DNA of 64,000 bases from Candidatus Termititenax sp. (GTDB lineage Bacteria; Margulisbacteria; Riflemargulisbacteria; GWF2-35-9; DYQY01), in assembly GCA_020719045.1 (NCBI GenBank), contig DYQY01000006.1, positions 30,898 through 94,897 of the forward strand, read 5' to 3'. A program made the position numbers and the translations under genes. This document shows, in pieces, positions 12,723 through 64,000 of this stretch. The notes beneath the pieces are model-generated. The model saw nothing but the letters and a program-made list of their open reading frames with translations, made no database searches and was not told where the DNA came from. How positions within the stretch are numbered: the first letter of the stretch is position 1; each line of letters starts with the position of its first letter.

Positions 12723-12724
12723 AC

Positions 12725-12744: not shown

Positions 12745-12766
12745 ATGTGTGTTATGGAGAAGGAGA

Positions 12767-12958: not shown

Positions 12959-12962
12959 AATA

Positions 12963-12991: not shown

Positions 12992-13016
12992 GGATAAGGG
13001 AGAATAAGGTACAACA

Positions 13017-16070: not shown

Positions 16071-16072
16071 AG

Positions 16073-29728: not shown

Positions 29729-30433
29729 TTATTTTTTAACTATTTTCTTTGTTTCTTCTCTTAAATCATTCAATCCCCTTGTTATGCTTCTAATCTTTTT
29801 CTCTAAATCAACGTATTCATCCATAAGTGGGTCAGGAACATTTCCTAAATTAAAATTAGATTCAGTATTTTGTTCCTTTACTTTAACTATTCTTGCTGGA
29901 TTACCGACAACTGTTGAAAATGCGGGGACATCATGCAACACAACTGAGCCTGCCCCTACCTTACAGTTTTCACCAATTGATATATTTCCAAGTATTTTAG
30001 CTCCTGCCCCTATAATAACCCCACTATTAATCGTTGGGTGTCTTTTACCATGCTCTTTACCTGTTCCACCAAGTGTAACTTGGTGATAAATAATAACATT
30101 GTCTCCTACTTCTGCTGTCTCCCCAATAACAACACCGTCGCCATGATCAATAAAGAATCCTCTTCCAATCTTTGCGCCTGGATGGATTTCAATAAATGTT
30201 AAAAACCTTACTAATTGAGACAAAATTCTTGGAATAAAAGGTATTCTTAATTTATACAACACATGAAATATCCTATAATTTGATACAGCATAAATGCTGG
30301 GGTAAAACAAAACTTCTACTATATTCTTTGCTGCTGGGTCACCTTTAAATACGGCTTTAATATCGCCGAAATACCAAGCGATGAAAAGAATTAAAAACAA
30401 ATAAAAAAATAAACCAATAAACAAATAAATCAT
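29729..30433 (-). CDS. cysE: serine O-acetyltransferase
   Basis: The enzyme acetylates serine to O-acetylserine, the precursor of cysteine. The left-handed beta-helix is clear: IHPGAKIGRGFFIDHGDGVVIG, catalytic His in DHGDG, HQVTLGGTGKEHGKRHP and ILGNISIGENCKVGAGSVVLHDVP. At 234 residues it has a hydrophobic N-terminus (YLFIGLFFYLFLILFIAWYF) that could be a membrane anchor, not typical of soluble CysE. It sits 15 bases after the giant gene's stop and has its own extended -10 promoter in the gap. There is no cysK nearby. Confidence 0.92.
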   Translation of the reverse strand: MIYLFIGLFFYLFLILFIAWYFGDIKAVFKGDPAAKNIVEVLFYPSIYAVSNYRIFHVLYKLRIPFIPRILSQLVRFLTFIEIHPGAKIGRGFFIDHGDGVVIGETAEVGDNVIIYHQVTLGGTGKEHGKRHPTINSGVIIGAGAKILGNISIGENCKVGAGSVVLHDVPAFSTVVGNPARIVKVKEQNTESNFNLGNVPDPLMDEYVDLEKKIRSITRGLNDLREETKKIVKK

Positions 30434-30448: not shown

Positions 30449-30770
30449 CTAATGAATAACACCTACCATCAGCCTAACAGAACCAATAGTACCTGATGAT
30501 TCAGAAGTAGCACTAACTACCACAAAATACCCACCCTTTGACACTTTTCTACCAATAGAGTCTGTTGCATCCCACTCAACTTTATTTGGCTGATTACCTC
30601 TTCCACCGTTATCCCCTGCTCGGAAAGTCATCTCCTTAACAAAGTGACCTAAAGCATCATAAATCTTAATAGAAACATTTGAGTCTTCACTTAGCTCATA
30701 ATAGAAAGTACCCTTCTCATTTAAAATTGCATTAACAGGATTAGGATAGAAAGATAAGTTTGAAATAATA
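30449..30770 (-). other. C-terminal FlgD-type Ig domain of the giant protein
   Basis: The last 105 residues read LSFYPNPVNAILNEKGTFYY, then VSIKIYDALGHFVKEM, NKVEWDATDSIGRKVSKGGY and a final strand ending GVIH. The YPNPVN start, IYDxxG and W(D/N)ATDxxGxxVxxGxY motifs are those of FlgD-like Ig domains, also seen at the C-terminus of type IX secretion substrates. The domain probably serves for export, anchoring or capping the fibre. A fibronectin-like domain precedes it (about 30770-31080, RLSWPPALDSESGVGYYTIEY). Confidence 0.75.
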
Positions 30771-33700
30771 TCCCTTGCTTTCGACATTCTTGAATAATCT
30801 GATACCAACCAATCGCTTGTTAATCTTGCACCATTAATAGCACTTATTCTGTATCTATATCTTAAATCACGCTCTCTATTAGCAATAATATAGCCAGTTG
30901 CATTAACTGTAGCTTCATAATTCCACCTTTGAGATGTTCCTCTTTGGTATTCTATTGTGTAATACCCTACCCCTGATTCTGAATCTAATGCAGGTGGCCA
31001 GCTTAAACGATGAATATCAGCGGTTGTTCCTTCTTCATTCTCTACCAACTGATGCAATAACAAACTAGCACTATCACTAAACTTAGGAGGAGTTAAGTCA
31101 ACGTTAAATGACATTATAAATTCACTAGATATAAAATTTTGAGACTCTTTACTACTTGTTGCCTTAACCTTTAACCTATATGTATATCCATGCACTAAAG
31201 ATAGATTAGAAAAAACAGTCCTATCTATTGTAACGCCTCTCAACTCAAAACGATTGGAACTTGTTATGTTTTGACTAATACCAATATTTACGGTTCCAAC
31301 CCTTTCCTCATTGCCTTGCACTATACGAACAAGCACTGCCTGAATACTCTGGATATCAGTTTGACTATCATTCACAAAACAATCTATATCAAAAGTTACA
31401 AGGTCTGATCTATTTACATAATTAAACATCCTGCCACTAGATATAATTGGCTGACTGCTATCAACTATTGTGAAGCTTCCAACGTTAATGGTAGCCATAT
31501 TTAAAATAACGCCAGGCGCTACCAATAAACTTAAATCTGAAGGATAAATCTTAATGTCTATATCTCCAGTAGCTGCTGTTGACGCAATATTAAATGCCAT
31601 ATTCATTGCTTGAGGTGAAGCATTGATTAAATATGGACTCACAAATGGAAGTCCTACTAAATCATAATCATTGCCAAACTCTGTAATATTAGCTAACCCT
31701 GACAGCTTAACATTAGTTGAAACCTCAAAAGGTGAACTACCTAATAAGTTAAAGTTATTATAAGAAACTCTTAAATTAAGCTGACTTAAGTTAGTGCTGT
31801 AGTAATCATTACTTATTTGTATTTCACCTATCTTTAGACTGGATCCTTGATGTATCTCGCCGCCCTGAACTGGTGTAAATGTAATAAACATTTTCTGACG
31901 ATAGCTACCTATCTCAGTCCTGTCAGACTTAAGTGGCATCGAGCTATCATTAACTACATTTAACGCTCCAACACCCAAATTAGATGTTGTGCTAAATTCT
32001 AAAGCTATACTTCTGCTTGGCTCAGCATTAATTCCAATATCACCGACAACAAAGACTCGCACCTTCTTGTGAGTAACCATCTTCCTAAAGTCTTGAAATG
32101 TAATTGTTTGGTTTGTTTGATCAATGATTGCATCAACATGATCTATCCACTTGCCATCTCCATTATCAAACACCTCATTCCACCCACTACTCTCATCCTC
32201 ATAATATAAACGAATATTACTTAAATGACCTACTGACAAGTCACTTGCGGAAGTTCTATTGAAAATCATCCTACTAATCTCCGTCACATATGGATATGAG
32301 TTCATCGCAAAAGTAAATAACACAACATCCTTATCCTTTTGATATGCGATATTAGAAGTAACCTTCTCGTTTGATTCTCTATAAACATGCAATACGTTCC
32401 AGCCGTTTCCAATAACAAAATAATTTGAAGTATACGTTAAGACATTGCTTGATACTTTATGATACACATCTAATCCAAATGAAGATGTAACTATCCTCAA
32501 TGCAAAAGGATCTAACGCAGAGTCTCTAATGTCTCCGTAAATTGAAAGAATTGAATTAACGGATATGTTTTGCTGATCAAATAAGAAAACAATATTTCCT
32601 GTTCCAACAAATTCTCGTGAATCTATCAATTGACCATTTAATTTTAAATACAACTTTTTAACTGTTAAGTTTTGTTTATCACCTATTTTATCTAAACTAA
32701 AACTGTTTAATAATACCTGAGTAGAAGGAGAAATAATAATATCCATCAAACGAAGAACCTCGTCTCTTCTGTTCACAGTATTGGTTGCCATATTTATAGT
32801 AACAACATATAGCTTTGGCTGAAGCTCAGTTGTTGCATTTAATGTATTACCAGCTAAGTCAACAAGTTGTCTCCTTAGAACTGGATGTAGAGACTTATCT
32901 GCACTTGTTAAATCTGCTGTTAATATAAAATTAAGAGTACCTGGTTCGATAAAGAAGTTCTTAGATGTTCTAAAAGTGTCATATGCAAAATCTATCCAAT
33001 ACTTATTAATTGTAAGAACTTCATCTATAGAAATATTAAATGTAATTCGTTGATTACCTGTTTCATCAAGATAATTATAACTAATCCTATCGACTGGCTC
33101 ACTTATATCTACAGTCAAATTCCATATTGATGGATATTGTGATATGTCTCCATGGTCTGTTCTCACCCAGATATAGGCATTAACTGTTAAAAATCTTTGT
33201 CCGTTTACTCCATGCAATTGAATAATATCACTGTAGTCTATTGTAAGTCTTGCTATATTCCATGAAGTAATGTTCCCGTCACCATAAATATCATCGGTAA
33301 CGTCTCTTGAAGCACTCCAAGGATCAAAACCTCTCCATCCAGTACTTGTTGAGCGTGGTCTTTCACTATTATTAAACTCTATTTTAAACTGATTAATGTT
33401 ATTGTCCTCGGTCTCATCATAGGAAACTGCTATCCAAAACAAAAGGTCTGAGTTTAAGGTATTAATATATCTATCACGCCTAACATCATTAATTTGTGAA
33501 AATCTAATTAATGCTGGATTCGGATAAAAATTCTCTAGCCATAATGTTGATTTACCAATATTTCTTGTTGAAATATTTCCAGCCAAATCTACCATTCCTA
33601 TGTCAACGGTAATCGTGCCACTAACATTTGACTCAACAAATGTATATCCTGCTGAATAAAATAAGTCGTTAATCCTTTTTACATCTGTAACAAGCTTTGT

Positions 33701-36700
33701 ATTCTCTGGTTCTGGGAAAATAATAGAAACTGTTGGATTCGTTGCCAAAATTTCTGAAGTTTTGATTGTAAATACAAATGAACCATAGTTAACTGTTGGC
33801 CATTTACTATATTCAAAATTACCTGTTGGCGGAAGCGTATCATAAATAATTGATGAACTTACAGCATTCAGATTAATTCCTGCCTCGTTTCTTGACCAAA
33901 GATATACTGTCTTACTCCCTTGTGCTCCTAATGGAATAGTGAACGTGCTTGGGAATGCACCCCACAATGAAGGATTATTCTCGCTTGGTCTTGCATCTAC
34001 GTTATATGTAACATTCCAGGAAAGAGTCGAGTCACCAGAATACTCACAATCAAGACTTACAGTTAATGTATTAGTATGTCGAGTGCTTCCATTATTTGGA
34101 TTTCTCATGTTAAAAATAGGATCTTTTGGTTTATTTCTTCTAAACTCTATTCCCGCAAATACCTCGCTAGCAACATTCCCAGCATTATCAACAAGATTAA
34201 TCTCTAGCGATGCCCTATTGTCGCTCACGTTACTAATCGCAGCATTTAAAGTAGCAACAAAAACAGTTGGCGACAATTGGTTAGCTGTTAATCTATATGA
34301 CTTAATAATTTCTCCATCATTTCCTAAGTTCATAGTAATAAAAAGCGACTGAGAAACGCGATTAATTTGCTCTAAAGAAGAAATTGTTACAATAAAAACA
34401 TCTTGAGTTAAATTAACAAAATACAGTTCATTCACGGCAACAGTAAAGTCAGGTGAAATAGTATCTACGTTAACGGTAAGCAGCTTAACACTATAATTCC
34501 CTGCTTTATCAACAGCAATTACTGATATTGTATTAATACCTTGATTATCCAGACTTATCACTGATTCTAATAGACCTAACGACCTTTTTTGTGAATCATC
34601 AATTTGTCTAGGTATTTGCATATGTATATCATTCGTTAACAGTACATAAAAATCTAAATCAGTGTCACTAACTGCTTCCCATGTAACAATAATCGCATTG
34701 CTATCATAATAGCCAATTATCGGCTCGAAACCATCCATCAAGGAATCAATGTCCGGAGAAATAAAAGCATTCATGGTTGGTGGCGACTCAATATCAACAG
34801 TTACAAGCGTTGAAAATGTTGATATGTTTCCTGCTTTATCTATAGCCTTAACGATAAGCTCTTGTCTGCCCTGAGTAGTTATATAGTTATTATAATCTGC
34901 GTTGTTCTGTGGCACAGTCCAATTAACGGTTAAAGAACTTCTTACCTGATATGGCTTGTTCCTTAGAATGCCGTCCGGTTTATTCCAATAAAAATTGACC
35001 TTAGTTTGATCATAGTACCCTGTTCGTGGATTAAACCATCCATCATTTGCGCTATCTGGAACTAAGAACACCCCACCAAGACCTGGTGCATCTAGATTAA
35101 CAAACACATTTGCTGATGTATATATAATATTCCCTGCTTTATCTCTTACATATGCAGTAAATATTACTGCATGTGTCCTGCCTGGAACAACTTGAATTGC
35201 AAAAGTTGAAGTAGCATCTACAAATCCGATAGTCTCATACGAACTTGTCTTATTTCCTTTAATAAAAATACTTTCTGTTACCAATGCGATATCATTTACC
35301 TCTGTACTACTCCACGTAACATATCCATAAATAATATCTTTGTTATACCAAATACCATACTCATCTACTATTGGTACTTCTCCAAGTCCATTTGCGACAT
35401 CAGGAGAAATAACAATAGCAAAGGTTGAAAAAACTGGCGCATACATATCTAAAACAACCGTAAGCGATGTACTTGCAATATTACCTGCCTTATCAACAAG
35501 CATAACTGATATTGTGTTATTGCCTGACGTTAACGCAGCACCCCACAACTCGGTACTAACAAGCTCAGACCAATTACCGGTATTAATCTTATATCGAAGA
35601 GGCTTGCTCTTAAGTGCCACATTATCATTCTTATCTAGCACCTTGAAAGAAGCAGAAGGAGAATTATACCAACCATAATAAGGCATTACACCATCAAATA
35701 TAGGTGTTCCCTGAACTGCTTCAATTATTAGACGATCTGGAGTAATTGTATCAACATAAATAACCATCTTATCTGATATTTCCATACCATTAGCAAGCCT
35801 TATACCAAAATCTATTGTTTTACCACCCACACCAGTATCTGGAATATAGATATTATTGATTGTATTAATATTACTAAAATAGGAAATATTTAATGCCTTA
35901 ATCTTAACAAAAAACTGTGCATCTCTTGTTAAAAAATTATTGCTTAATATCTCTTGGAAATTATGACTAACCCTTACATTAATTGTATTTGTGTTAAACC
36001 AATCAATATCTGCAGACACTCCAAAAACGTTTGTTAGTCCAGCCTCGAATATGTCTATTGAAACAAATAGATTATCAGAAATTAGCGCTGATGCAAACGG
36101 TGCAATATTAACCTCTTTTGTTGCGCGAGTACTATTGCCTGCGATATCTCTAACTTCTAACACAAACTCTTTTGGCACACCATAACTCATTGTTATTACA
36201 CAGTTTGCCGCTGACTGCCAAGGTGACCAATCCATATTATTAGAAACTTCAGCATAACGATATGCGGCTGGCGGTAACCCACCCTCATCTGTTGCTATCC
36301 AACTCCAAGCTATATTTTGTGTAGAATACCATCCATCTAATAATTGCTTACCATCTGCCGCATAATCAGGAATCAAGAATAAATTTACAGAAGGAGGTAC
36401 GATATCTACTTTGAATTGATTACTATAAACAGTATATGCATTTCCAGCATTATCAAGTGCCATAAACTCAACCCTTCTTGAGCTCATAGTTGGACTTGAT
36501 ATGTAAAAGTTATTGGTTGCTTTTACATTATTCGCAACGTTAATTGTTGTCCACACTTGCTCTCCCTCTACTCTTGCAAAATAACAATTTGTAGGCCTAA
36601 TACCACCCAAGTCACTAGCAGTCCATTCAATACTTAAAGAATTCTGGTTATACCAAACATAATCTGGTTCGACATACGGATCAAAGGTAGGATACCCATT

Positions 36701-57700: not shown

Positions 57701-60700
57701 ACTATCTCCTCTAGTATATGGATAATTATTATTACCATAAATATATGATGGACTCTCTGGCTTCAGTCCATCGTACTTTAATTGTGCTATGTTTTTCCAA
57801 TCCCATTCATTCGCAACATTATCTCTTAATTTTATCCATAAATTATAAACATCTGCAGAAACTGAACTTATTAAATCAGGCTTAATACTATATTTAAATC
57901 CTGAAGTTTCTCCGTTTAATGCTTGCGCTGGAGTGTCTTCCCTAGTTAAACAATACCTTTTTGCCCTCCAATCCACTAAGGAACCAGTAGGAGGCTCCCC
58001 TTCTAAGTCTTTACTAACTGAAACACCTGCTATTATCTCAATACGAGTATTATTAAACCATTTTGATTTATCAATAACTTGCGAACTATATCTATCTCGA
58101 ATCTCTACTGTAAAATCTGAGGTAGTAATATTAGGAGTTGAAACATCTATAGTATAAATATAATACTTAAGGTCAGCAGTATTCCCAGCATTGTCTATTA
58201 CTCTTAACAGCCAATAAAACTCTTGATATTCATTCCTAATACTAAACTGATTAAAATTTGGTTCTGCCTCAGTTAACAGATTACTAGTTATCTCATATTT
58301 ATTAGTAGAATCTCTAACTAAACGTTCAGTGAAAGTTGAGTAATCAACTTCAATATTAGTGGTTAGCATCCCATAACAAGCACTAACGCCAGAACCAGCA
58401 TCTGATATCTTAATAAAGAATTTAAAATCTGTTTCAACTAATTCTGGAATCCAACTTAATAAACTTAAACTTCTTTTTATTAAAGTTACGTCTTTATTAG
58501 CAGTGCTAAACACAGGACTAATAGAGTCAACTTGCAAACGATAAATTAATCTCAATCCATCATATAGATTTCCTGCATTATCAATTGGTCTAACATATAT
58601 ATAATATGTACCATTAGATATATTAATATTTATAGTAACCTTGCATTCTGTTGCACCTGCTTGTTGAAAATTAAAACTTGCGTTTACTATCTCTATTGTT
58701 TGTAATGTCTCATTTTGCGTAATAACATAGTAATAGCCTAAAACTCCAGATAATGACTGATTACGCGCTGAGTTCTGATCTCTAATAGCATCAAAAGTTA
58801 TTACCTTTGGCCCTTGCTCTTTAGTTAATAAATACCCTGGTTTATTATCTTCATTTTCATAATCATACATTGAATATGGAGCAATATTATCCCAACTAAC
58901 TATCATCATTAAGTTCTTCGATGTATTCCCTGCATTATCTTCTAAATAACTGTATATATAATTAATCGTCTCACGTAGTTCTGATACTTCTATACTCCAC
59001 GTTACGGGATTGCTAGTAATTGTTTTAACAAAAGTCCCAAGAAGAGCATAAGCTGATTCTATGGTGTACCCAACATCTTTTAGTCCAGAAAACCCTCGGT
59101 CACTAAACTGAACCGTAACTATCTCCATCCACTCTTTATTGCCTTCAGTTGTAAATCTAAAGCCTGAATAATCTACTGGATTTAGTTGATTAAAAGATGG
59201 CGCTAATGAGTCTTTTAAAAATGTAAAAAGATAGCTCTCTGTAACTTGATAGCGCTGACTATTATTAAAAGAAACGAAGATATCATTTGTCCCTTCTGAA
59301 AGATGTTCCCACTGAATAGAGAAAGTTGGGCTATACTCATTACGACTAACTCCACTAGCGAATATAGTCCAAGTAATAGGTTGCCCATTAGCAGAAACAC
59401 CATATTGTAAAACATTTAGAGTAGAAATCCCTGAAATATCTTTAAATGTAGTTAGAACATTATAAATTAAATCATTCGTCGAACTATTATGCCAATTTTT
59501 ATAACGGTATGTAGCATAAGCTGTATAATTATATGTTAATGCTGATTCCCATCTATATACTGAAAACAACTTATCGGTTGTTATTGTATTCCCAGCTCTA
59601 TCGCTAATCACTAAGAAAACATTATTTGTTCCATTATAAAAATCATTTGCCTGCATAGCCCAAGGTGGAACTTCAGGATAACGTATCTTCCCGCTTTTTA
59701 CATAATCTGGGCCAACACTGATATCTGTTGTAATCCAATAATAAACGTCTCCTATTCCTGAATCACCTATATCAGTAAAACTAATGGTTACTTGTTTATA
59801 CATCTCTGGCAAATGCCAATACTGACCCTCTTTAACTCCTTTATGAACTTTGTTTTCAACTGAAGAACTATCATAAGTTGGAACCCCAGTGTCAACTTTT
59901 ACTTCAAAAGCAAACCGGCCTATAGCGTTCCCTGCATTGTCGGTAACAAAAATATATATATTATTCGTTCCTGCTGATAAATTATTAAATGAGAGTGGCC
60001 ATTCAGAAACATAACTAACAGAGTTAACCGAGGTTGCAATAACTACAGGAACACCTGTAGCTGTGATCCTATAAGAGATACTTGCAATTCCTGATAGGCC
60101 AGCCTGATCAAAAATATTTAAACTAACTGTCGCTAACCATTGGTTATTAAATGTTGAATACCAGCCTGTATGTTTACTATTAACTAGGTAACCTAACTCA
60201 AAATTTGGCGTTAATGTATCCTTTTTCACTGTAGCAATTATTGCACTATTGGTGTTCCCTGCATTATCTGTAATGGCTACATGTATCTCTGAAATACCGT
60301 TTGTAATAATATCCCAAGTAATAGTCCAATCATTAGCAAGGGAGATTGTTGAGGTTGGGATATTATAAAAACCTGTATAGAAAGCTGAATTTCCACTAAC
60401 CCTTAAGGCAAACTTAACAGAATTAATCCCTGATAAGTTATCATTAAATGTTGCTATACTTTCTACATTATGACCTAACCAATCGGGGGTATTCCTATAC
60501 CAAATATCACTCAAAGCGCTTGTGGTATTAATGCTTGGAATAAACGAATCTTTTTTAATTGAAAATGCTTTATTACTTGATACATTACCAGCTCTGTCTG
60601 AAACTATTATCCAGACGTCATTTGTGCCTTCTCTTAAATCTTCCCAGTTTATACTAAAAGTAGGACTAAACTCAATAAGCACCACATCATTAGAAGAAAT

Positions 60701-63700
60701 ATTTACAGTAGGGCCTATGCTACTAGTTACTATCTTATAAGAAACAGTAACTATCCCAGAATATCCGACTTCTTTAATGTTAATAGTAACATTTGTTAAC
60801 CATCCTGGAGCGACTCTATACCAATTAGTATCGAAAGTCCTTTCACTTGGTATGCTAAAACTAGGAGCCGTGTCATCATACTTGATGGTAAAAAGAAGAT
60901 TGCTAGTCACTTGCCACCCAGCATTATCAGTAACTCTTACATAAATATCATTGCTTCCACTATGAATATTTGTCCACGCTATATCCCAAGTAGTAAAACT
61001 CTCTATCATTACACTGTGAGTTATGCTATGCCACTGAGTATTTGGATTAAAATTATTGTTATAAACTCCGTACTGGATTCCTGAAATATTAGAACTACCA
61101 GTATCCGTAAATACACAAGCTGTAATACTAGATATAAAACTTGGTTGATTGCCTAACCTATACCAAATATCAGTGTCATAGCTATTTAGTCTATCATAAT
61201 TAATTGCAATGGTTGGAGAGATTGTATCCTTGAGTAGCGTGACTAAATGATTATTGGTAATATTCCCTGCGCCATCAGCTATCATAATGGTTATGTCGTT
61301 TGTACCATTATGTAGCGCTGTCCAATCAATAGTTAATCCACTAATAAACAAATGATCAACCACGAAATTCGTAGTAAAAATACTTGCATCAGAATATCTA
61401 TAAACGCTATATGTCACTGACTTCATGCGAGAACCTTCTAAATCTGACATATCTACAGATGTTTTACTTAACCATGATGGGGTAATCATATGCCACTTAT
61501 CATAACCTTTTCCTGTTGTTGGGTTATTCAAAGAAAATGATGGCGCTACGTTATCATAAAAAACCCTAAAAACTTTATCTGAAGTAACCACCCATCCAGC
61601 ATTATCACTAACAACTACATAGATATCGTTAGTTCCATTAAAAAAAGCTGCTGAGTTTAAGTTCAGAAATTCACTAGAACCATAATCAATCAAGTTGCTA
61701 TTAACATTCTCATAGGGAAGACCCCATTGACCACCAGAAAAACGATAATTAAAGGTAATAAAAGTATTTGTGTTACCAGAAATCCAATACATATAATCAT
61801 CGATTAATGACCCACTTGCATCATCAGAAACTTTTACTTGTAACTCTCTAATATTTATAGAGTTATTTTCAAACCATTGAAGATTATTCCAAGAATTCAC
61901 TAAACCTTGTTTAGGACCAAGATTAGTCCCTAATGAAATATTTGGGCTAATACTATCTTTCTTAATATAAAATAATAAATCTGAAGTATTATTATTTGCC
62001 CTATCGTAGACATCTATATATACATTAGTTGTTCCCTCTTTAAACCAATTCCAATTAAAATAAGCTGAAGAATTGATTGTTTGAACGCTTTCATCTGTTG
62101 GCAAAAGAACATTCACTGACCTAAAATATTCTTGCTTGTCACCCGTGCTAAGTAAAAACTGAATAGTAGCTAAAAGAGCTGGGCCAATATCATTTATTGT
62201 AATAGACACATTGCTTAAAAATGAAGCATCTTTAGAAGACTTAAACCAAATATTTTGATAGCTAAAAGTTACATCAGTGAAAACAGGGTTCTTAGTATCT
62301 ATAAGTAAAGTAAAAGCCGCAACTTCAAGCGTATTACCTGCATTATCGCTTATATTTATCCAAATATTATTTGTGCCTTGCTCTAATTCATCAAAGGAAA
62401 TCCTTAGCTCTATATTCTTCGTTGTTAAGTTTATACCTAGAGAGATCTCTTTTACTACAGGCTGACTACCATTTCTTGTTACTAAACTCCAAGAATAACC
62501 ATCCAACAGTGAGCCACCATTATCAGATATGAGAATACCAATAGTAATTACGCCACCTTCAAAACTGTTATACCAAGAATTCTGGCCATAATTACCTCCA
62601 GCTGTCATTTTATAAAAAGGAATAATAGTATCTTTTCTAATTGTACCGATCAGCGTATCTAACACATTGCCAACACCATCAGCTACGTTTAGATAAATAT
62701 CATTCTCCCCATTATCTAATATCGACCAAGAAACAGCCCATAACTTGTCATAACTAACAACTGACATGTTCCAAGATATTTTATGAGCTTCTCCATTAAC
62801 ACTGATTCTGTAACTTATGGAACTTAACAGAGAATTCTGTTTGTCTAAATCTACAGGATCTTCGATTATCATGTTAAAAGTAATAATATTCTCAGGTGTT
62901 TTATACCATGAATTAAATGTTGGAATAATCCTCCAACCGTAAGAAGGAGATATGGTATCTTTTCTTACTATAAAGTATGACCCATCATCAAAATTATGAC
63001 TACTGATACTATTATTAGCATGGTCTCTCACCATAAAGCTAATAGTAGTTATTCCTTCCCCTAGTGAATTAAAAAATCCTTTTTCAAAATTATGAGTAGC
63101 TACAACATTTAAAGAACTACCAGAAACCGTTTTAATAAGAACTGACCATGACTTATCTTCATAATTAATTACGTATATGCCAGAATGAGAATCAGCTACA
63201 TTTATAGTAACTACCTTATAAGTGTTTCCTTCTAAAATGTTTATTATAGCCTCTGACAACCAACCATCTAAAAACATCTTAAACCGAGAATCTCTAGTAA
63301 TTGAAACAAAATTTGGGGTAACAGTATCTTTCCAAACCTCGCAAAGAACGTCTTGGGTTTGCTGACCTGCCCAATCTGATGCAGAAATAATTATCTCATT
63401 AACACCTTGGGTTAAAGCATTCCAATTAATTTGCCAACCATCTTCAGGATATACCCTTGTAATTGGACTATTCGGTCTTTGGTCTGTTTGCCTAACTGTG
63501 GCAATATACTGACCACTATTTGCACTTGTAAAATAATTAATCTCTTTTAACCCAGAACCCAAGACAGTCTCATATGCAAAGGCATTAAGCTTATAGTTAG
63601 ATTCATTTGACCAAACATTTACCCAAGATCTAAATGGAGACTCATTCTTAATAATATTATTTGATACATTCGGAGCACCATCATCTCTTTTAACATAAAA

Positions 63701-64000
63701 CACAAAACCATAATATTTATTATCTGCAAAATCATTCATGGAAATCCACACTTCGTTTACTCCTACAGATAACTGATTATTCCAACTAATACTCCAATTT
63801 TCTGTTACAAACAATAAACCAGTAGTGGCATTACTAAAGATAGTGTTACGAGATATGATTTCACCATTAACGCTTGTTATAACCTCTATTTCTTTTATAC
63901 CTGAAAGTCCTAATTCGTTAAAATCTATATCTATTGAGGTTATCCAACTAGGTTCGTTTATATACCAAACATTAAAAGTTGCCTCAGGAATATTCTTAGA
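30449..64000 (-). CDS. giant multi-domain Ig/fibronectin-like surface protein (partial, start outside window)
   Basis: One uninterrupted minus-strand frame runs from the right edge to a TAG at 30449-30451, over 11,100 codons. The last 60-odd codons at the window edge are also open and carry the same repeat style (ELGLSGIKEIEVITSVNGEI), so the true start is further right. The predicted mass exceeds 1.2 MDa. The sequence is a chain of beta-sandwich domains ending in D-N/R/K-A-G-N plus V-D-x-x-x-P-x motifs (for example SDNAGNT, VDTISPDF). Repeats occur in several length classes, with a helical insertion near 54090-55135, fibronectin-like units and a FlgD-type Ig domain at the C-terminus. Cysteine is rare. 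It is presumably secreted and acts as an adhesin, stalk or cell-cell contact fibre; neither the signal peptide nor any anchor is visible. Confidence 0.9.
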   Translation of the reverse strand, partial: SKNIPEATFNVWYINEPSWITSIDIDFNELGLSGIKEIEVITSVNGEIISRNTIFSNATTGLLFVTENWSISWNNQLSVGVNEVWISMNDFADNKYYGFVFYVKRDDGAPNVSNNIIKNESPFRSWVNVWSNESNYKLNAFAYETVLGSGLKEINYFTSANSGQYIATVRQTDQRPNSPITRVYPEDGWQINWNALTQGVNEIIISASDWAGQQTQDVLCEVWKDTVTPNFVSITRDSRFKMFLDGWLSEAIINILEGNTYKVVTINVADSHSGIYVINYEDKSWSVLIKTVSGSSLNVVATHNFEKGFFNSLGEGITTISFMVRDHANNSISSHNFDDGSYFIVRKDTISPSYGWRIIPTFNSWYKTPENIITFNMIIEDPVDLDKQNSLLSSISYRISVNGEAHKISWNMSVVSYDKLWAVSWSILDNGENDIYLNVADGVGNVLDTLIGTIRKDTIIPFYKMTAGGNYGQNSWYNSFEGGVITIGILISDNGGSLLDGYSWSLVTRNGSQPVVKEISLGINLTTKNIELRISFDELEQGTNNIWINISDNAGNTLEVAAFTLLIDTKNPVFTDVTFSYQNIWFKSSKDASFLSNVSITINDIGPALLATIQFLLSTGDKQEYFRSVNVLLPTDESVQTINSSAYFNWNWFKEGTTNVYIDVYDRANNNTSDLLFYIKKDSISPNISLGTNLGPKQGLVNSWNNLQWFENNSINIRELQVKVSDDASGSLIDDYMYWISGNTNTFITFNYRFSGGQWGLPYENVNSNLIDYGSSEFLNLNSAAFFNGTNDIYVVVSDNAGWVVTSDKVFRVFYDNVAPSFSLNNPTTGKGYDKWHMITPSWLSKTSVDMSDLEGSRMKSVTYSVYRYSDASIFTTNFVVDHLFISGLTIDWTALHNGTNDITIMIADGAGNITNNHLVTLLKDTISPTIAINYDRLNSYDTDIWYRLGNQPSFISSITACVFTDTGSSNISGIQYGVYNNNFNPNTQWHSITHSVMIESFTTWDIAWTNIHSGSNDIYVRVTDNAGWQVTSNLLFTIKYDDTAPSFSIPSERTFDTNWYRVAPGWLTNVTINIKEVGYSGIVTVSYKIVTSSIGPTVNISSNDVVLIEFSPTFSINWEDLREGTNDVWIIVSDRAGNVSSNKAFSIKKDSFIPSINTTSALSDIWYRNTPDWLGHNVESIATFNDNLSGINSVKFALRVSGNSAFYTGFYNIPTSTISLANDWTITWDIITNGISEIHVAITDNAGNTNSAIIATVKKDTLTPNFELGYLVNSKHTGWYSTFNNQWLATVSLNIFDQAGLSGIASISYRITATGVPVVIATSVNSVSYVSEWPLSFNNLSAGTNNIYIFVTDNAGNAIGRFAFEVKVDTGVPTYDSSSVENKVHKGVKEGQYWHLPEMYKQVTISFTDIGDSGIGDVYYWITTDISVGPDYVKSGKIRYPEVPPWAMQANDFYNGTNNVFLVISDRAGNTITTDKLFSVYRWESALTYNYTAYATYRYKNWHNSSTNDLIYNVLTTFKDISGISTLNVLQYGVSANGQPITWTIFASGVSRNEYSPTFSIQWEHLSEGTNDIFVSFNNSQRYQVTESYLFTFLKDSLAPSFNQLNPVDYSGFRFTTEGNKEWMEIVTVQFSDRGFSGLKDVGYTIESAYALLGTFVKTITSNPVTWSIEVSELRETINYIYSYLEDNAGNTSKNLMMIVSWDNIAPYSMYDYENEDNKPGYLLTKEQGPKVITFDAIRDQNSARNQSLSGVLGYYYVITQNETLQTIEIVNASFNFQQAGATECKVTININISNGTYYIYVRPIDNAGNLYDGLRLIYRLQVDSISPVFSTANKDVTLIKRSLSLLSWIPELVETDFKFFIKISDAGSGVSACYGMLTTNIEVDYSTFTERLVRDSTNKYEITSNLLTEAEPNFNQFSIRNEYQEFYWLLRVIDNAGNTADLKYYIYTIDVSTPNITTSDFTVEIRDRYSSQVIDKSKWFNNTRIEIIAGVSVSKDLEGEPPTGSLVDWRAKRYCLTREDTPAQALNGETSGFKYSIKPDLISSVSADVYNLWIKLRDNVANEWDWKNIAQLKYDGLKPESPSYIYGNNNYPYTRGDSGQITFSFGEAIDYGGSEISHYNFYVYKIDKSLKTTINTWLTATVNHAYTVAFNSDGVNECEFEPVVHIYDNAGNVTIKGGTPVLIDRSSPQAAINPKAVQRTDSSVKIVWQEPLDNPEGTNGSGIKGYRLAMYNYATEDTEFIGEPLGALRTSYDMITDTQLIYNVPIEIDFISKIWAIDYAGNESVTATVRQLPIDIKAPINPPIATTKDESLYSIYANDAIQGLPKPRAFKGGQEDFFHFIWMPGEDEGFGIYSYQYRWLKDNSSQTTGTTTDRTLNLSASVNGTYSLLLKSEDFAKNQATDWEEVYRYSVDFGSSGTSPTRPVSPVIETPLYTSKNSFSFTITSKDNKGAESYYRDINPAYPKYEVSVYKAHYVQPAFGSLSEGGDIVTLNFPTDNTDITIYNLSPNAQYFVKYRVQYGSSGDSISGWSYGSDYVFVDTQNPPTMDSPIIADGEVYVSKNNLKMVYLPKRDTNDDNSFFAGSGIEKYQVQRYVNGSVHNPYVEIPFGAINRVRDLYSTKDVSFPPKQLDEFSVKIRAIDRAGNFGAWSDTSNVCIYDSNAPTLDNIMVYAFVGEAPGSRYDYNNVSINGIVKGFNFRFSWDRPSDDSGVDGYEYYYGYYNLDGEVNTPSVAAYYYETGTLLANENQVVLLGGYPFGNIGLNLNPFNTRFKKEGLAENNTTFISGDVKYLCIKAIDKTGNKSATWKKIFQTKIDRYPPNKPVFTSPATNTVNSTGVTFSWTAVADQAGGAVSYYSLDIYMAKQSGGLENKLMITLNGTEYVSTDISEGRYCALVNAYDSFGNKIRQFELEDTGAYNVPGNQDFGKNPRTDFALLSQWFNVDKTSPATPSAPDKYLELYQGGISTTNVAQMKNIFKFIEENDVDGGTGGDFNLPNEIIRKVVAGENGDKYQDVYFQSNQSFSDLIINNWEQRIDPIVDYFKYGRLTSANMIAEFQAGGLLSTENGKGDYTYAELLVKLKDEMKYVRENPFISGGNIFRKSYYDDDINTEGSLVSLKNAIKNNGVINKQLFVDVITAEATEAGVTYDIPEFLAEEIVIAFSEDYLSSEEVSSPFYRIRDEVRDTKDAIQNIHFAGIIPFGVVSSKNIFEQSGVSIDELDALTKDMTAVGALLPAGDYSGWFIINGEYLYNNLVLSESKLSTTNLNILFNKITVDYKEIITSIVVSIDGQVDELRLNLGKFLREHDVENPSSFALVSKDFLNMDGYFVWKIRGYDDHSLGSGIAKVEIDVSPNQKNEDIIVCDAFTPTISASNFGLATLNVNSTIKLRVTDFAGNTSGWSGDGDYHDNIFIDENSPGRLVVHYFAEDILLPNREHSWSSNHPRKSLWNQGKNLSWYSYNEPPDHIYSTNNFLTKFSNRFVDFAILNDSEGNKNYALELNNFYKTTSAGISYKFDRTKPIPKQGVTTVVGVNSYLSSNLSILGTNYEYTDTKAPLKEYCYALVNLDNKEVDTKLIGGTGISIPITGNNGKRFRVEVSGINKADLEGDAIKSIDFAIDTVAPGNISRVWANSGVAVGGKYWGKSIPQSVFSWTPPEENEFGVSQYVVEISDGSYSSIAIVTASFLSLSDNSFINLTGEIRCKVKAVDYAGNESPWASSDFPLKIDSTPPSFKQGFTVNELNGIPHDVWQSVTNAVSFNFGQLATSFADDGDSGISQFEIYWGPELNRQYGAKISVGSQGYKPESVMPNLGQVQHHLRIRACDNAGNWTSMKTVYITKYDTFIHPVDSLWVLPFQDCINQIDGNSNSFSKSVDGRFYNGVTVDIIWPDYQEEAGISKFYIEIYATGNDISNAHEAVLIKTVTVDYGDPRLRHLINSVPVTKGYLYTCSLDTLSLNGVDVSSKNVYFYILIEDKIGNKSQPLVRSYMFWMDRNTPNAVFQPTLDNTGEDIGIVKTAQSLTWNWTNPYDPGGSGIACYYAYIAPFPEDGSKVTESVRITMNQVNSKNYYFSKPLTDNLYSFYIRVTDNAGNTGNISQGQSVLIDTIKPSLNLVLHSEYSANNARRTVGGIEYALVISNNVGIQVFMKDYSATQTGNVGSGIKKISFDLSERQENGSFLSMNSLSEYATYNLAGLTFNFAQDIVKRITSEAPSGLTINSFHSDQTINLAQFALISNDLVISNNWFSTTNIIYTTITMNQITFNVRERDQFYRLRLYAEDWAGNSATKDFYFYTDLNAPTLDKKFSGFVYLDSDYKFKVKNILGEQGHLNFGGENGYDTKQPEQNNDYKINHYASETNRMNVFPTGNSARYIYSAFDTLSAGLQHAWGIFPSQNYFPYVETVAGRWGRDFIVVSSSAKFYLRGFDESSEQLAFYQNTQDRFEKSWVNASNSLSNNESLSIKNVNGEPLQGAYYNMSTGRTTHDISFNLSLGGWDWARDLVQVSINGLEDGATLNLGAMDYGKNIDEIKFSHVYKSKPIELVTAQTQMEFLYMTSAGVPTQQTYASRYSINSEPWMDYQVQPWLVDGVIGTNTNDIRVSMQIVVSGEPYQLRAWNQRPIFFSNGSSVNAYSGLNAISSNMALPTHNNWSTAPILITYNYNSFYGYSTKNTTGTLITANRDRLSVNAQQYLSVNIPNMYGDRAISIVVPYYVDTRNPTVTLNSYYLYEKLLDLDIEKNLGALSATNNRIIISEQRITFDVPSTEFKSKIMPAFFGYKEMIYVNTLNALAKQNWVTANSVAFVGNITDNGGIGLPVNPFRYRVITSDTQGNKGASHQRWYDAWDSITANINVGINWIDLIWEDKARNYSGTSNAIVVYDANSPVISSISVKESWWKNENQRKLLFEKPYVSTWGIQPLMPNHSLVTTPTFYIDGHKGIRLYFTVHDDAYNEKVLSINSTNVYEFSFIRVLVSRNGQEVATLDIAFNNFGSLVSNNYGIYKVLASSPYDILTKRPSGDRFTTNNRQVTPFNYCFFVTRDSVISNNAIFGSTKDALFQFKLSIVDYAGNITTTDYSDMLWVNNVNPTASLIITVDVLPDTTYRSDGNSRLATASVLGAQLLNNELLAPVHCSSGDLQNRIYNSGVVSFSFRATMDSLIYAKPGAQFVCVWTTNDSYNNNGNVFYAYYGYATSNWGTINSSIIVTASFTFDVFNPKPGTIKVTMDTFVDGKGKYTSINTTTVITESTKIVRFYVSLADAAGNPVFPTASSKWSIITIDITPPELSGGLIFDIHSGNVLNKDKGLYIYYGQVTGNLPTVNNFQIASLNIFASVNSIVYVKTNQVSFNMAQFIDVDSGVPTNDKYLRTKVYATAITSNLAQNAYIEGSYGGSLLYTKNSKKSSTTVTLDIGVYLNKEYDKLYMVDNYYANNAGIITRNSFLVVRDTTPPTISAFSIRQSVSEDRNYLPATWNFYGSQNLVISWKATDDLAVKSGGWLTGADRKGIWFYELEYDHIDANNPTSGYIFSSRNTSIMNIDGVRESAQGFVPTISTSVTINWSDVMSHILEGKVTFSIYAWDYALNYAVTQMVLYLDTGNALENSIKQIIPVTDNTDGQMDGVAPSDAGGSGYFDQEEVSVVIHLTKDAYDVTQINTLTTPSHLPVEVFVATGSRQLRVSFNYVTASIGQMPPILDGSNKYFNTDYLTGNLENVAVFITVDLSEVVSLNSYQGPVTLSFKLVDGAGYLSSTANMTSRITVDLSPPTGSSLFVNSSDIFYNGEIYNNLFDVYGISSNTAFIITTNVGQTVEDFADSHSGLAGEAYWYKFIQKDFSDLALEQKVQSFDGWESYPRVRLSDKFTPELFVSENQLYQIVSSIRNKVGRVVINTKNYVFDTKAPTINSFYIEAAGSQLSAFQRSSLNFISNESVSVRWRVSDNAYDLLGDEIFNEKSQRPSFNGIYNYELFYNKNSSRITIDSGISLNVNYAYSRYNQSSYNLSVLYVSDNIREGSVSMTIFAQDFCGNIASQNSSYYFFDWSNTLNEQIKFFEKVTDNVANVTNYTGFELTPYQAALTVGYYDQTSVNIVIHLSLNAHDTTQLSYLTANHIPLVVYVATSDLQWKEVSSVNVMATYNKLPSIILVPNLAGVTISVTIDLKEYIGTSLYQGIVSLSFKIIDGAGNLSPTSNAILVTVDLTPPEQEFIFITENNNYFFVSTENSLLNYGISVNFAFHNTSNQLIISSSATDIHSSLKVTWNNYLIDKFSLSGGHIASWNTGWNNSPTVSIASFNSFGGASPNYYYVVHNYVANMAGVVNKSEPKYIVIDNVPPTSSLFEAKQQGGGSTYSSSSENFIQLSTINVRWIVSDNAYIASSNIFNNNNNLGIFSYELKYITSNKYVSIASSDLNPNTQNNFVISKEYLEGIGEHSITFSLIAIDFAGNIATFNIGPFIIDINNTLNAQIERYEAVTDNVKNLGVGGMLTINPYEASGMSGYYDQTTVDFIVHFTITANDRTQLSYLRIPHIPFEVFVSTANSEIFVPVSLDKVISTYSFTEDIFQTGNLRSLTVSVTVNLEEFVKETGYQGQTAIKLKVIDGAGNLSATSSMAFISTVDLSSPTTSVFGGVSFDVGFGYQGNASMFGHYGLSTNTVFISSNSTPKLKVLFVDSHSMLPTTFNQLVLLSRNLSTISTRNGTSELMSIASVNNVLSANSLYHLFTYAWNNVGAVSKGATFNVVFDSEIPVVQTPTLDIPDGATAYPKSDPLYVQVATSTIRYVASDNIITAGIFANNRQNTHFGIHHFDISYQDIIASGPKVFVLTNNIVSMDSGISPSSSKQLSRDFVLEFFNGKLISVNLDFYDFAYNMRTGTIGPLIFDSINTMNSQIAIINVSDNSNEDGLGGAPISINAGYYDSPTVTFILEFGSNANDITQLSYLTRNHIPIEICATINGSPYICTKTVVASYNLADMKSNRNMANNLAWLTVNVTFDMSEWIGREGQYQGPVSVSFLFVDGAGNLDSALVPENSIVITVDVTPPTGSAVFRASDYFFIATRDYTEYGIVDGTAFSRSTRNIRLSADFNDSHSGLPENKYYYQARRYPFNSLSISEDYKNLSWMSTYDIDIATGDGLVYTSLTPNSIYRIEYQVRNNVALVTSFDRWIVVDTIVPTVNEYYFSEQMAGDYMSSSTSSYYSLQPLTINWRASDNYYVDLAGQSFFGFATANHQGIYNAVIYFSKNSSRTNIITINHLDMVNQHVITTGYIENTIMQGIVTIGVDIIDFAGNVTTTYNVVWFDWSNTINLQIKDIIVTYDNISNLSVTDSHGYLFDDRTPSNSRYMVGVYDQPTINLQIVLTGDAGDITALSYLMYQHPIVAFVSFNNSIVTVSPEFVQVTYNIVGVQDLLNGRTIAGLTIDVTLDVQQTINVVDGYQGRFQLTFKFVDGVGMLSGYDKKNLIVTVDLSAPTSSATTPWNVGVTGVTNNSEGIPAGYERRLFSNTANFVITFSMFADSHSGLAENPYYLFATGNSVATRDGSGNLGVLGVFSNWQANNTFNLTSQGLYGVSSLDYDVISLDIVMKVNNSAGIVTWNQQRLYIDRVSPEITTFNRTARIDVDEDSYLPEEDNFYNKQAIWLTWDMFDNLGEDNNQLGIVPTAGIWYVELSWETSTTGAVSRGEIITKGMLFSGMEWFLSADDISDDIKQGAVTFTITVYDYAGNSAVNYMNLVFDWQNVPPTQGFGFIPDRTDNSSPKDGLIPYYGYFDQTTISFYITFDSVAEVTGISTKNILVQYATSNGYVTIDSGLYDYYITYNEVAYFQNQVGITVDIDFQNLLEYYSNNEFRGLAANLSFQLIDRAGVKRQERFETRITIDLNAPTVNHPAAFVFTLEDCDDNNQNGILPEFGFYDSSFIRAHVSYDSLVTSNGFADMDKRVFFRLFTLEGKSSSTWWDNSLKIANTNERDVSSVKRIALSDNASIVSFNAINNVITEDSYVYEAYIRDKAGHSYSTHIYVTYDATAPTIDPELYPLDGSKRISFVGIISIIPDVDSKGSRVNPLIGYYDNITLNLEIEIVNQGKWNSSFLNQSCSDNLSGFMDKPFFIRYSFFNPTQQVTFDSTNIPAGAFYSTFWNDVGSFYGGTGFMSGGNYNTHKAQLVLANNSSGNILVMISDKAGNATTINVARDSHIAKVDTVYVDMDAPSHPDFVFELIDTTDSKASGIVPDKGYFDERLISFSFSFSGVTDNGIAGLRENRFLIATFGYGADYTSPNYRWISNVSYNSSGLFKVSENYDDDDDMFGTQISTHSISIGDSIFNGIKLSEGIQTVWLGLADKAGNVQYASYSIVVDTITPNIVTFNINFATASITLRDNSLRVITGDTDSGDDGIHPYYGYFDDVSVDVMIVTISYWDANTRNNAYFVKSTGASVTGSIAYSYSQAGATYNFNGFVLTESEYGQVAVVFRDVYTTTGNQNLTVYISDRAGNVVTREIFVTVDITPPTGSAELVLSDDIDFEGTGINPINGFYRSATINFTISNNVVDSNSGLRDNRYLAAYYYKNLANPVVITRNFFNHSYLAVANSQEEILLSQNYGQTVNQLIDYVPSRNFEGAIVLYTAISNKAGGLLVVTKEVVIDRTPPSFSVYNDFLLELVQDDDSKDDGVPPIAGHYDSPTISVVFVTSNSLFDLSSGFRHNRFFVKTEHPSLNVMSFATFNYLTTNNSLIRYFDDAFDALGANSKGSHTPSIDGIFVTNDNKSRCYTIVGAIADRAGNFITREVKVTVDIIKPGDTGVTIYLDLIPGEDTDGNGVLPLDEWYDTNKVQFIITVSIGSLALADDFSGIREGGVYYFVTSNPNAQSNTQNTISVNLGDNSAFTITVDQIHSELSPNYIYVLVQDKAGNVKELRAEVFVDTTNPGGPFELTIEDDKDVSVGQVLPEAGWYNDNTLDFFWKRATDNIALRNDPYRIRINNGTWSDYMNQVVIKDYYVSEALFTINVQVQAVDKAGRSIVVSGTVLIDTQKPGTFDIYLDYNRYVTGSVVPLYDWYRDTGVDIYWKDVSDNRTLKTSPYQIRGIGEYGEFVSITRAYNVLLPEGYKDLFTLRTEKIWVRAVDKAGNYSEKYVSVNIDKTSPVNVTVKILSDNVNGYPTFDPYVEPDYVWYNQNSLSIEWTASDLGGIRPTNCYFARVEGEQVWTTINVANNVKATNNFYISSPTMSSRRVEFMALDNAGNAYTVYSNQFKVDIVPPSVNLFLIPDYAADGKQLLDGWYSTQNIAWSWIATDEGGLPPAAYRYAEVSNNMDWSPWQSAANCVITMSYGVPKEFVLEVRDIAGNSTRATKEVNIAPFASALISDNLFVSIDIFEAGLTNVFGVSADIDWFNTNTINVRVSHNFQEILSNNFLTRDAQFFVKIKALNISYFSNINTINNIYIPDTGVGGKTIDFGIRLANGMEISDKMVIYVDTITPDRLIIEAVQGTPIFDGVMPYYGWYNSPSASFKVLDKNDNVALKSKPLRYKINTGNWSELVSTELWGAALTSGNNTISVMLVDKAGNIASTSLTVVLDMYAPVFSTFAIVISPDVANGLGEVPIVDEYGIWYNKDIIYGYVTWSSTEVNDIALVTESIFIKGNKTSSYETIGFVDATSTFAIQVVPGRTHAVIFTAYVRDKAGNIIYTSANVFVNLDAPGLGGVFLVPDSANDGWFNPRTGYYDQTKVNFYWNKPDGILRNKPYQVRSSLTVNWTVPQNNADYNNYITTQGRQELIVKAIDKAGNISTFSTLVTVDIESPPTMNAFISPDIDSLMDGFEPIIGYYDSNAIIVTWEAVSDTDLDFYVLLTNDIHMQIPRQIDDSQKRSLGLLESVISLDNQGINTISVIAVDKAGNYSVKLLTVNVDTISPDFTVAVNELYFVNLTQDVFIVTISSLEQINRVSQSLFITMNLGNDGEIIKSYRLTANQLSPTVFVATLNAAISNVSDNRASLEINLVDNAGNVASEVFAGIEFRRNKPKDPIFNMRNPNNGSTRHTNTLTVSLDCEYSGDSTLSWNVTYNVDARPSENNPSLWGAFPSTFTIPLGAQGSKTVYLWSRNEAGINLNAVSSSIIYDTLPPTGNFEYSKWPTVNYGSFVFTIKTSEILATNPTVSIIFPEPENTKLVTDVKRINDLFYSAGYTFVESNVSGTITVDIGMVDLAGNISTRNIGKSTLWLENFYPNPALIRFSQINDVRRDRYINTLNSDLLFWIAVSYDETEDNNINQFKIEFNNSERPRSTSTGWRGFDPWSASRDVTDDIYGDGNITSWNIARLTIDYSDIIQLHGVNGQRFLTVNAYIWVRTDHGDISQYPSIWNLTVDISEPVDRISYNYLDETGNQRITFNISIDEVLTINKYWIDFAYDTFRTSKNFFIEPGTLNFILTADLTSADKSLHPVLRRQLVDLAGNTLNATTELQPKLYVVTINMATNTVNRRDEVLRLMDIIISPSTQVLLNSFSLDKIGDKQNLTVKKLYLKLNGQLIDSREFVGTGNIVFLFDQQNISVNSILSIYGDIRDSALDPFALRIVTSSFGLDVYHKVSSNVLTYTSNYFVIGNGWNVLHVYRESNEKVTSNIAYQKDKDVVLFTFAMNSYPYVTEISRMIFNRTSASDLSVGHLSNIRLYYEDESSGWNEVFDNGDGKWIDHVDAIIDQTNQTITFQDFRKMVTHKKVRVFVVGDIGINAEPSRSIALEFSTTSNLGVGALNVVNDSSMPLKSDRTEIGSYRQKMFITFTPVQGGEIHQGSSLKIGEIQISNDYYSTNLSQLNLRVSYNNFNLLGSSPFEVSTNVKLSGLANITEFGNDYDLVGLPFVSPYLINASPQAMNMAFNIASTAATGDIDIKIYPSDLSLLVAPGVILNMATINVGSFTIVDSSQPIISSGRMFNYVNRSDLVTFDIDCFVNDSQTDIQSIQAVLVRIVQGNEERVGTVNIGISQNITSSNRFELRGVTIDRTVFSNLSLVHGYTYRLKVKATSSKESQNFISSEFIMSFNVDLTPPKFSDSASLLLHQLVENEEGTTADIHRLSWPPALDSESGVGYYTIEYQRGTSQRWNYEATVNATGYIIANRERDLRYRYRISAINGARLTSDWLVSDYSRMSKARDIISNLSFYPNPVNAILNEKGTFYYELSEDSNVSIKIYDALGHFVKEMTFRAGDNGGRGNQPNKVEWDATDSIGRKVSKGGYFVVVSATSESSGTIGSVRLMVGVIH
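31080..32800 (-). other. non-repetitive region of the giant protein
   Basis: About 570 residues here lack the D-N-A-G-N repeat signature. The sequence is beta-rich (LTVKKLYLKLNGQLIDSREF, IYGDIRDSALDPFALRIVTS, FTPVQGGEIHQGSSLKIGEI) and resembles other all-beta surface modules with alternating hydrophobic strands. It is unlike the rest of the chain and may be a functional head or stem near the C-terminus. No specific family is recognised. Confidence 0.5.
34450..37400 (-). repeat. class 1 repeats of the giant gene (about 330 bp, GWYN type)
   Basis: At least nine units carry the motif G-W-Y-N or G-Y-Y-D followed by W and K-P-Y-x-x-R (for example LPEAGWYNDNTLDFFWKRAT, IFDGVMPYYGWYNSPSASFK). Motif positions fall near 37320, 36990, 36650, 36330, 35990, 35660, 35340, 35010 and 34710, an even spacing of about 330 bp (110 residues). 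Each unit ends with DKAGN and VDTxxP. The copies are diverged at the DNA level. Confidence 0.75.
37400..40500 (-). repeat. class 2 repeats of the giant gene (about 440 bp)
   Basis: Seven units carry an acidic G-I/V-x-P linker, G-Y/F-Y/F-D, an alternating strand and S-G-L/F-R-x-N-R-Y/F (for example DGIHPYYGYFDDVSVDVMIV, DDGVPPIAGHYDSPTISVVF). Motif positions are about 37690, 38120, 38545, 38935, 39430, 39935 and 40385, giving spacings of 390-505 bp. The acidic D/S/K-rich run before each G-x-x-P resembles calcium-binding loops (such as DSKDDG and GDTDSGDDG). Confidence 0.7.
40800..47300 (-). repeat. class 3 composite super-repeat of the giant gene (about 1,250 bp, six copies)
   Basis: Six copies of a larger unit are marked by G-Y-Y-D-Q-T followed by D-x-T-Q-L-S-Y-L-T-x-x-H-I-P-x-x-V-F-V-A (for example GYYDQTTVDFIVHF and TQLSYLTANHIPLVVYVATS). 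Marker positions are about 47160, 45825, 44586, 43350, 42068 and 40817, spaced 1,240-1,335 bp. Each unit also contains G-A-G-N-L-S, V-D-L-S-P-P-T, D-S-H-S-G-L and W-R-V/A-S-D-N segments, so it spans several Ig-like domains, about 420 residues. This is a higher-order duplication of a multi-domain block. Confidence 0.8.
54090..55135 (-). other. helical insertion domain inside the giant Ig chain
   Basis: About 350 residues break the beta-sandwich pattern with clearly helical, charged sequence: TTNVAQMKNIFKFIEENDVD, LLVKLKDEMKYVREN, GSLVSLKNAIKNNGVINKQL, EIVIAFSEDYLSSEEV and SIDELDALTKDMTAVGALLP. It contains a GDYSGWFIING step and ends before the next Ig-like unit (FVWKIRGYDDHSLGSGIAKV). It is flanked by fibronectin-like repeats on both sides. 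I recognise no enzyme motif; it may be a ligand-binding, hinge or catalytic module. Confidence 0.65.
58900..64000 (-). repeat. N-proximal repeats of the giant gene (about 340 bp)
   Basis: Fourteen or more units carry the pattern W-Y ... S-G-I-x-x-V-x-Y ... W-x-I-x-W-x-x-L-x-x-G-T-N-D-I-Y-V-x-V-x-D-N-A-G-N/W ... K-D-T-x-x-P-S-F. The D-N-A-G-N positions fall near 63380, 63010, 62680, 62335, 62005, 61610, 61275, 60930, 60590, 60265, 59930 and 59595, a mean spacing of about 340 bp (113 residues). The copies share protein motifs but not long identical DNA runs. The array continues past the window edge. Confidence 0.8.

Follow-up and report, generated by a model that had tools for sequence, protein, structure and literature searches.

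A giant Ig-like repeat protein of conserved length and domain order in the Marinamargulisbacteria

Introduction

The window examined here (64,000 nucleotides, C3:30898-94897 of the 134,899-bp contig C3) holds the larger part of a single minus-strand gene of about 51 kb, which takes up ~2.9% of the genome from which it comes, that of a small flagellated bacterium in an uncultured phylum (G000; 1.75 Mb, 31 contigs, 99% complete; no 16S rRNA gene was found in the assembly). The gene is complete and intact, encodes a protein of Ig-like and related domains, and is under purifying selection; its neighbours, its length and the number and order of its domains are conserved among relatives. With slightly better than even confidence, the product is taken to be a Sec-exported surface fibre of fixed length, anchored at its C-terminus and used for attachment. 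The features of the gene and of its downstream neighbours are collected in Table 1.

Table 1. Features of the giant gene and its downstream neighbours in the window (residue numbers are counted from the first TTG, C3:112300).
Feature	Position in window	Strand	Basis or remark
Giant gene, codons ~5,802-16,984 and stop	30449..64000	-	Continues past the window to C3:112273
End of the N-terminal array, aa 5,802-7,749 (last of 65 domains and a weak 66th)	58157..64000	-	Iterative HMM, Pfam Big_13
Mixed Ig/FN3-like zone, aa 7,750-9,700	52304..58156	-	Alignments; profile matches to titin FN3/Ig chains
Conserved region, aa 9,701-11,250	47654..52303	-	Alignment A4, 33-36% identity
Four ~415-433-aa composite modules, aa 11,251-12,831	42911..47653	-	Motif positions, alignments A5/A6
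~100-165-aa Ig-like modules, aa 13,515-15,650	34454..40861	-	Motif scan, alignment A7
FN3-like domain, ~aa 16,772-16,875 (limits approximate)	30779..31090	-	A1 profile against titin FN3 chains
FlgD_ig / T9SS-tail-like domain, aa 16,896-16,968	30500..30718	-	PF13860 E 2.4e-7, TIGR04183, A1
cysE-type serine acetyltransferase	29729..30433	-	15 nt past the giant gene's stop codon; conserved in G001, G004, G006
cheD-like chemoreceptor deamidase	29226..29702	-	Sequence knowledge
HDOD-domain protein	28309..29178	-	Sequence knowledge
fliM-like flagellar switch protein	27332..28294	-	Sequence knowledge

Extent, start and reality of the gene

In the window, the frame runs through 11,183 codons without a stop and leaves at the window edge. 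The sequence-only reading, which had described more than 11,100 codons of an open giant gene, was correct and fell short of the true size: on contig C3 the frame extends to C3:112300 and counts 16,984 codons from the first TTG; a stop codon lies 15 nt further upstream. The 5′ end that this reading hoped to find on an adjoining contig was recovered, on the same contig. A TTG nine codons further in, at C3:112273, is the more probable start; it lies 17,376 bases past the window edge (virtual window coordinate 81376) and is preceded by the ribosome-binding site AAGGGGG with a 7-nt spacer. From this start, the product has 16,975 aa, a mass of 1.895 MDa, a pI of 4.7 and a hydrophobic signal-like segment at its N-terminus. 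By either start (16,975-16,984 codons), it is a single intact frame far beyond the 5,000 aa taken to define huge proteins.

Five orthologous 5′ ends can also be read, each with a TTG behind (A/C)AGGGG or GGGG, so that all six readable 5′ ends (C3:112273; L067, L068, L069, L071, L034) combine a TTG with a GGGG-type ribosome-binding site. This conserved weak start may serve to restrict the synthesis of a costly protein.

An open frame of 51 kb at 34% GC cannot arise by chance. The longest exact direct DNA repeat within it is only 19 nt, near the 16-18 nt of codon-shuffled controls, and repeat collapse is therefore of no concern. The divergence of the repeats at the DNA level, which had been noticed from the sequence, is thereby confirmed, and the domains share only about 32% amino acid identity with one another. 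Assembly collapse or chimerism was rejected on the basis of this repeat length and of orthologues in separately assembled relatives. The gene is present in all six other genomes of the order that were examined (Ca. Margulisbacteria, Marinamargulisbacteria/GWF2_35_9 group). In G002, which belongs to another family, it is complete on a single contig and, counted from its TTG, has 16,437 codons. In G004, a piece of 4,313 codons ends at the contig end where a piece of 12,153 codons begins. In a genome of the same genus as G000, contig ends divide the gene; a search did not find its middle in that assembly, which breaks inside the gene.

Selection was measured against this same-genus genome. Over 5,530 codons the two genes share 58-60% amino acid identity, with dN of 0.31-0.34, saturated dS (>2) and an overall dN/dS of about 0.15 or less; every 600-codon window tested agrees. 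The giant gene is thus under purifying selection, as had been supposed. The neighbouring genes evolve more slowly (dN 0.05-0.15); surface proteins often evolve faster.

Frame breaks were found in two relatives, one in G006 near reference residue 13,637 (L072/L073/L039; G006:C22, about base 32,780) and one or more in G005. Both are fragmented MAGs in which sequencing error and real damage look alike at such breaks, and the one in G006 may be erroneous, a genuine lesion or the sign of a split gene. These breaks are what could be said for an assembly artefact or a decaying pseudogene, a reading that is very improbable given the intact gene in G000 and G002, the frame open across two contigs in G004, the absence of long exact repeats, the purifying selection in every stretch tested and the same length in separately assembled relatives. 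As far as sequence can refute it, it is refuted.

Domain organization

Tandem Ig-like domains of ~113 aa start at aa 164 and form an array of about 7,400 aa, for which an iterative HMM counts 65 domains in each of G002, G004 and G000, with a further, weak 66th in G000 only; these numbers rest on the HMM segmentation. Pfam finds Big_13/Big_3_2 matches along the protein, the array domains being Big_13. An AlphaFold (AF2) model of one array domain, built on 14 of the array domains in the window, has a mean pLDDT of 77; the structures that it resembles are Ig, FN3 and PKD beta-sandwiches, with Z of about 7-8. The best Foldseek E value was only 3e-3 and was used for fold class alone; the model supports a beta-sandwich fold class and nothing beyond. 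With its Pfam matches, 65 HMM-defined domains and modelled fold, the protein belongs among those with many tandem Ig-like domains. The Ig-like character proposed from the sequence therefore holds, but the single uniform repeat does not: the array is followed by several further kinds of beta-sandwich, by an FN3 domain and by a sorting-type tail.

The biofilm scaffold RbmA stood at the top of this fold comparison (Z 8.2), tied with unrelated Ig chains. Together with the giant "coat" proposed for Omnitrophota (PMC10066038), this lends some weight to a secreted matrix or sheath scaffold, of which many copies would coat the cell or bind cells together in place of a single tether. Such a scaffold is rather unlikely, since by the tool's own note a Z of about 8 is at the level of a common arrangement, and a scaffold does not obviously require strict conservation of length.

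Beyond the array, conservation varies. The mixed zone at aa 7,750-9,700 is the least conserved part (26-30% identity, with the largest inter-family gap, 65 aa). The following ~1,550 aa have no recognisable family: alignment A4 gave no PDB profile match and Pfam only a weak Big_3_2 match. This stretch could be the seat of a binding function. The composite modules carry DGAGNL-type motifs at aa 11524, 11957, 12372 and 12786. The modules of aa 13,515-15,650 open with an acidic D-x-D-x-x-DG-type motif, possibly a Ca2+ site, and close in D(K/R)AGN; they have Big_13/Big_3_2 matches in all four of the orthologues compared. The profile of alignment A8 (aa 14,850-16,150) matches the SiiE chain 2yn3, while PDB profile searches with alignments A4, A6 and A7 returned nothing. 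Near the C-terminus, the A1 profile matches titin FN3 chains with a best E value of 8e-34, and the tail domain (SFYPNP...KIYDALGHFV...KGGY) is the most conserved part of the whole protein. A single-sequence AlphaFold model of the C-terminal 834 aa reached a pLDDT of only 33. No ligand-binding, lectin or catalytic domain was recognised in the protein, and viral contigs yielded no confirmed relative of its C-terminal region.

Conservation of length and domain order

The genes of G000 and G002, from different families, correspond from end to end in two HSPs of 8,714 and 7,875 residues. Their global alignment comprises 15,390 aligned residues at 34.6% identity, and the largest gap is at most 65 aa; over the stretches compared, it is at most 49 aa for G004 and at most 22 aa for G006. 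Within the array, testing collinearity by tiles gave no clear answer, with 81 of 154 tiles scoring best in register, and a domain-register test was therefore run. Orthologous array domains (34-39% identity) are only slightly more alike than paralogous ones (32-35%), which was a further reason to test the register directly. Mean domain scores peak at shift 0 in each pair of genomes: 128 against roughly 89-97 at shifts of 1 to 8 domains in either direction for G000-G002, 151 against roughly 103-111 for G000-G004, and 180 against roughly 110-122 for G002-G004. In addition, a short linker after array domain 41 is common to the three.

The diagonal is the row-best in 20 of 65 domains for G000-G002, 28 of 65 for G000-G004 and 38 of 65 for G002-G004, and the claim accordingly covers the count and the order of the domains, not the distinctness of each. 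Because orthologous domains are barely closer than paralogous ones, no position-specific function is claimed for single domains. By these scores, the array has the same count (65) and register in three genera of two families, the array of G004 crossing a contig junction that was taken as contiguous. As the relatives keep the gene, its place and the number and order of its domains, it seems to matter that this probable surface fibre retains its exact length.

Terminal domain and possible export route

An FN3 domain followed by a FlgD_ig/T9SS-tail domain ends the protein in all six orthologues compared. TIGR04183, used to look for a type-A sorting domain, matches all six, the window protein scoring 21.1 against a cut-off of 23, and the FlgD_ig (PF13860) match of the window protein exceeds its cut-off. 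The A1 profile matches both PorU and FlgD chains, and the terminal domain fits T9SS tails about as well as FlgD. The same type of tail ends two other large proteins of G000 (2,623 and at least 3,985 codons), and large proteins of the class share the C-terminal ~600 aa. Since FlgD_ig is also found in flagellar FlgD, the tail alone is no proof of type-IX sorting. Taken together, the signal-like N-terminal segment and the C-terminal domain suggest export and C-terminal anchoring.

Components of such a route were sought in the same genome. Outer-membrane proteins of the PorV family gave six matches in G000, some above the cut-off. A protein of 1,692 aa (G000:C17:83740-88818; L043:1740-6818), encoded near a tail-bearing gene, has a barrel-like C-terminus, repeated DY-x-(V/I)-x-Y-x-x-G-x-(V/I)-x-F motifs and a partial, below-cut-off similarity to SprA; it is a candidate for a divergent type-IX-like translocon. 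In the phylum, 59 of 74 genomes contain partial SprA-like matches. The SprA_N model gave no match, the full SprA model only matches far below cut-off and GldM nothing above it; these searches had no positive control, and absence is not claimed. A literature search returned no work that combines Margulisbacteria with type IX secretion, or Marinamargulisbacteria with "giant".

The FlgD-like end, the fixed number of domains and the presence of cheD and fliM nearby would also suit a titin-like ruler in the periplasm or across the envelope, or a flagellum-associated structure docked by that end. This is improbable: the terminal domain resembles T9SS tails about equally, the same tail is found on several other large proteins, and an extended length of ~0.6 μm exceeds any periplasmic gap.

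Genomic neighbourhood

In G000, the giant gene is followed on the same strand by cysE, cheD, HDOD and fliM, in agreement with the position directly upstream of motility genes that the sequence-only reading had given it; the order is conserved. The names of these neighbours, as well as those of rubrerythrin and motA/motB, are presumed from knowledge of the sequences, without a family search. cheD-HDOD-fliM lie downstream in G001, G002, G003, G004 and G006 as well, accompanied by cysE and/or dnaJ-like and cheR-like insertions. Upstream, rubrerythrin is found in G000, G001, G002, G004 and G005, and ferritin-like genes in G002, G003, G004 and G005. Flagellin genes are present in G000 and in every genome of the order that was searched.

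A second link between a large tail-bearing protein and motility genes was observed in G000, where a protein of 2,617 aa with a FlgD_ig tail (G000:C17:92204-101560; L043) is encoded beside motA/motB-like genes.

Attachment, gliding and cell capture, the roles named in the sequence-only reading, are all plausible for the giant protein. A motility-linked adhesin like SprB of gliding bacteria, either driven over the cell surface by a motor or displayed in step with flagellar activity, would account for the conserved neighbours cheD and fliM and for the tail protein encoded beside the presumed motA/motB. Little credence is given to it, as flagella, indicated by flagellin genes in all members of the order, suffice to explain the motility genes, and no GldM match rose above the cut-off.

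Comparison with known giant proteins and adhesins

Huge proteins (>5,000 aa) that lack a functional (COG) assignment are enriched in certain phyla, Margulisbacteria among them (PMC11573180), which fits the earlier remark that such giants come mainly from a few candidate phyla. As far as its accessible text goes, this survey is at the phylum level, and neither orthology, length conservation nor domain register of the present giant was found there. Elsewhere in Margulisbacteria, frames of 10,112, 9,118, 8,694, 6,967 and 5,695 codons (G020:C40, G011:C1, G040:C18, G007:C26 and G007:C58) encode Big_13-type or related domains and were not recovered as full orthologues. There may thus be several lineages of giant proteins within the phylum.

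Omnitrophota likewise have giant ORFs in small genomes of uncultured bacteria, for example one of 39,678 aa in Velamenicoccus, and some have been proposed to act in cell adhesion; they are described as mostly poorly conserved, with few annotated domains and in some cases many transmembrane helices (PMC10066038), whereas the Margulisbacteria giant is order-wide, collinear and Ig-like. Cag_0614 and Cag_0616 of Chlorobium chlorochromatii (36,805 and 20,646 aa) are putative adhesins of a cell-attached bacterium. They are of the RTX/hemagglutinin type, specific to the symbiosis and located in a genomic island (PMC4053972), unlike the present gene, which occupies a conserved chromosomal site beside core genes.

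The giant BIg adhesins of the SiiE type (2yn3/2yn5) share tandem bacterial Ig-like domains and possible Ca2+ sites with the giant; SiiE, at 595 kDa, has about a third of its size (PMC6272769). SiiE is a type I secretion substrate, whereas the giant ends in FN3 and FlgD_ig/T9SS-like domains and is flanked by cysE/cheD/HDOD/fliM and rubrerythrin/Fur, which sets it apart from SiiE-type T1SS adhesins in its adjacent genes and its C-terminal domains. SprB and other T9SS substrates of its kind are large adhesins whose secretion involves a sorting domain at the C-terminus, and the TIGR04183-like tail of the giant may be a counterpart of that domain. Periscope proteins are also rods of tandem folded domains, on the bacterial surface, where the giant probably lies, and have near-identical repeats in variable number (PMC8201768). 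The giant is not of this class, as its repeats are ~32% identical and number 65 in three genera of two families. As a giant Ig-like repeat protein it is therefore of a known kind; what is unusual is how it evolves, with its length and order fixed and its locus conserved.

Proposed function

In the favoured reading, that of a surface fibre, the ~1.9-MDa protein would form a single long and flexible rod, whose 16,975 aa, divided into domains of ~113 aa, give about 150 units the size of a beta-sandwich. Sec would export it by means of its N-terminal signal-like segment, and a type-IX-like route would then carry it over the outer membrane by recognising the FlgD-Ig/Por-tail-like C-terminus. The C-terminal end would hold the protein at the cell surface, with the 65-domain N-terminal array projecting outwards. 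With ~4 nm for each domain, the array would measure ~0.25 μm and the whole protein ~0.6 μm, about half a cell length or more. Its most likely role would be that of a tether of fixed length that binds another cell or a surface. For scale, Ruthmannia eludens, an imaged marinamargulisbacterium, measures at most 1.2 x 0.47 μm, and thin fimbria-like structures join its cell to the host vacuole membrane (PMC6784892); these structures are not linked to the giant gene here.

A more specific version is possible, though well short of probable: the exact number and order of the ~150 domains may be under order-wide stabilising selection as a tether or ruler, because the span has to match a partner surface or is tied to the motility or taxis apparatus encoded next to the gene. 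Export could then proceed by a divergent SprA/PorV-type pathway of Margulisbacteria.

Significance

Descriptions of giant bacterial genes usually call them strain-specific or poorly conserved, and repeat adhesins are usually presented as variable in length. Here, a protein of ~17,000 residues that occupies ~3% of a 1.75-Mb genome has kept its length, domain count, domain order and neighbours across two families. Whether it matters exactly how long a giant surface protein is thereby becomes a testable question, and the search for what Marinamargulisbacteria hold on to gains a defined target.
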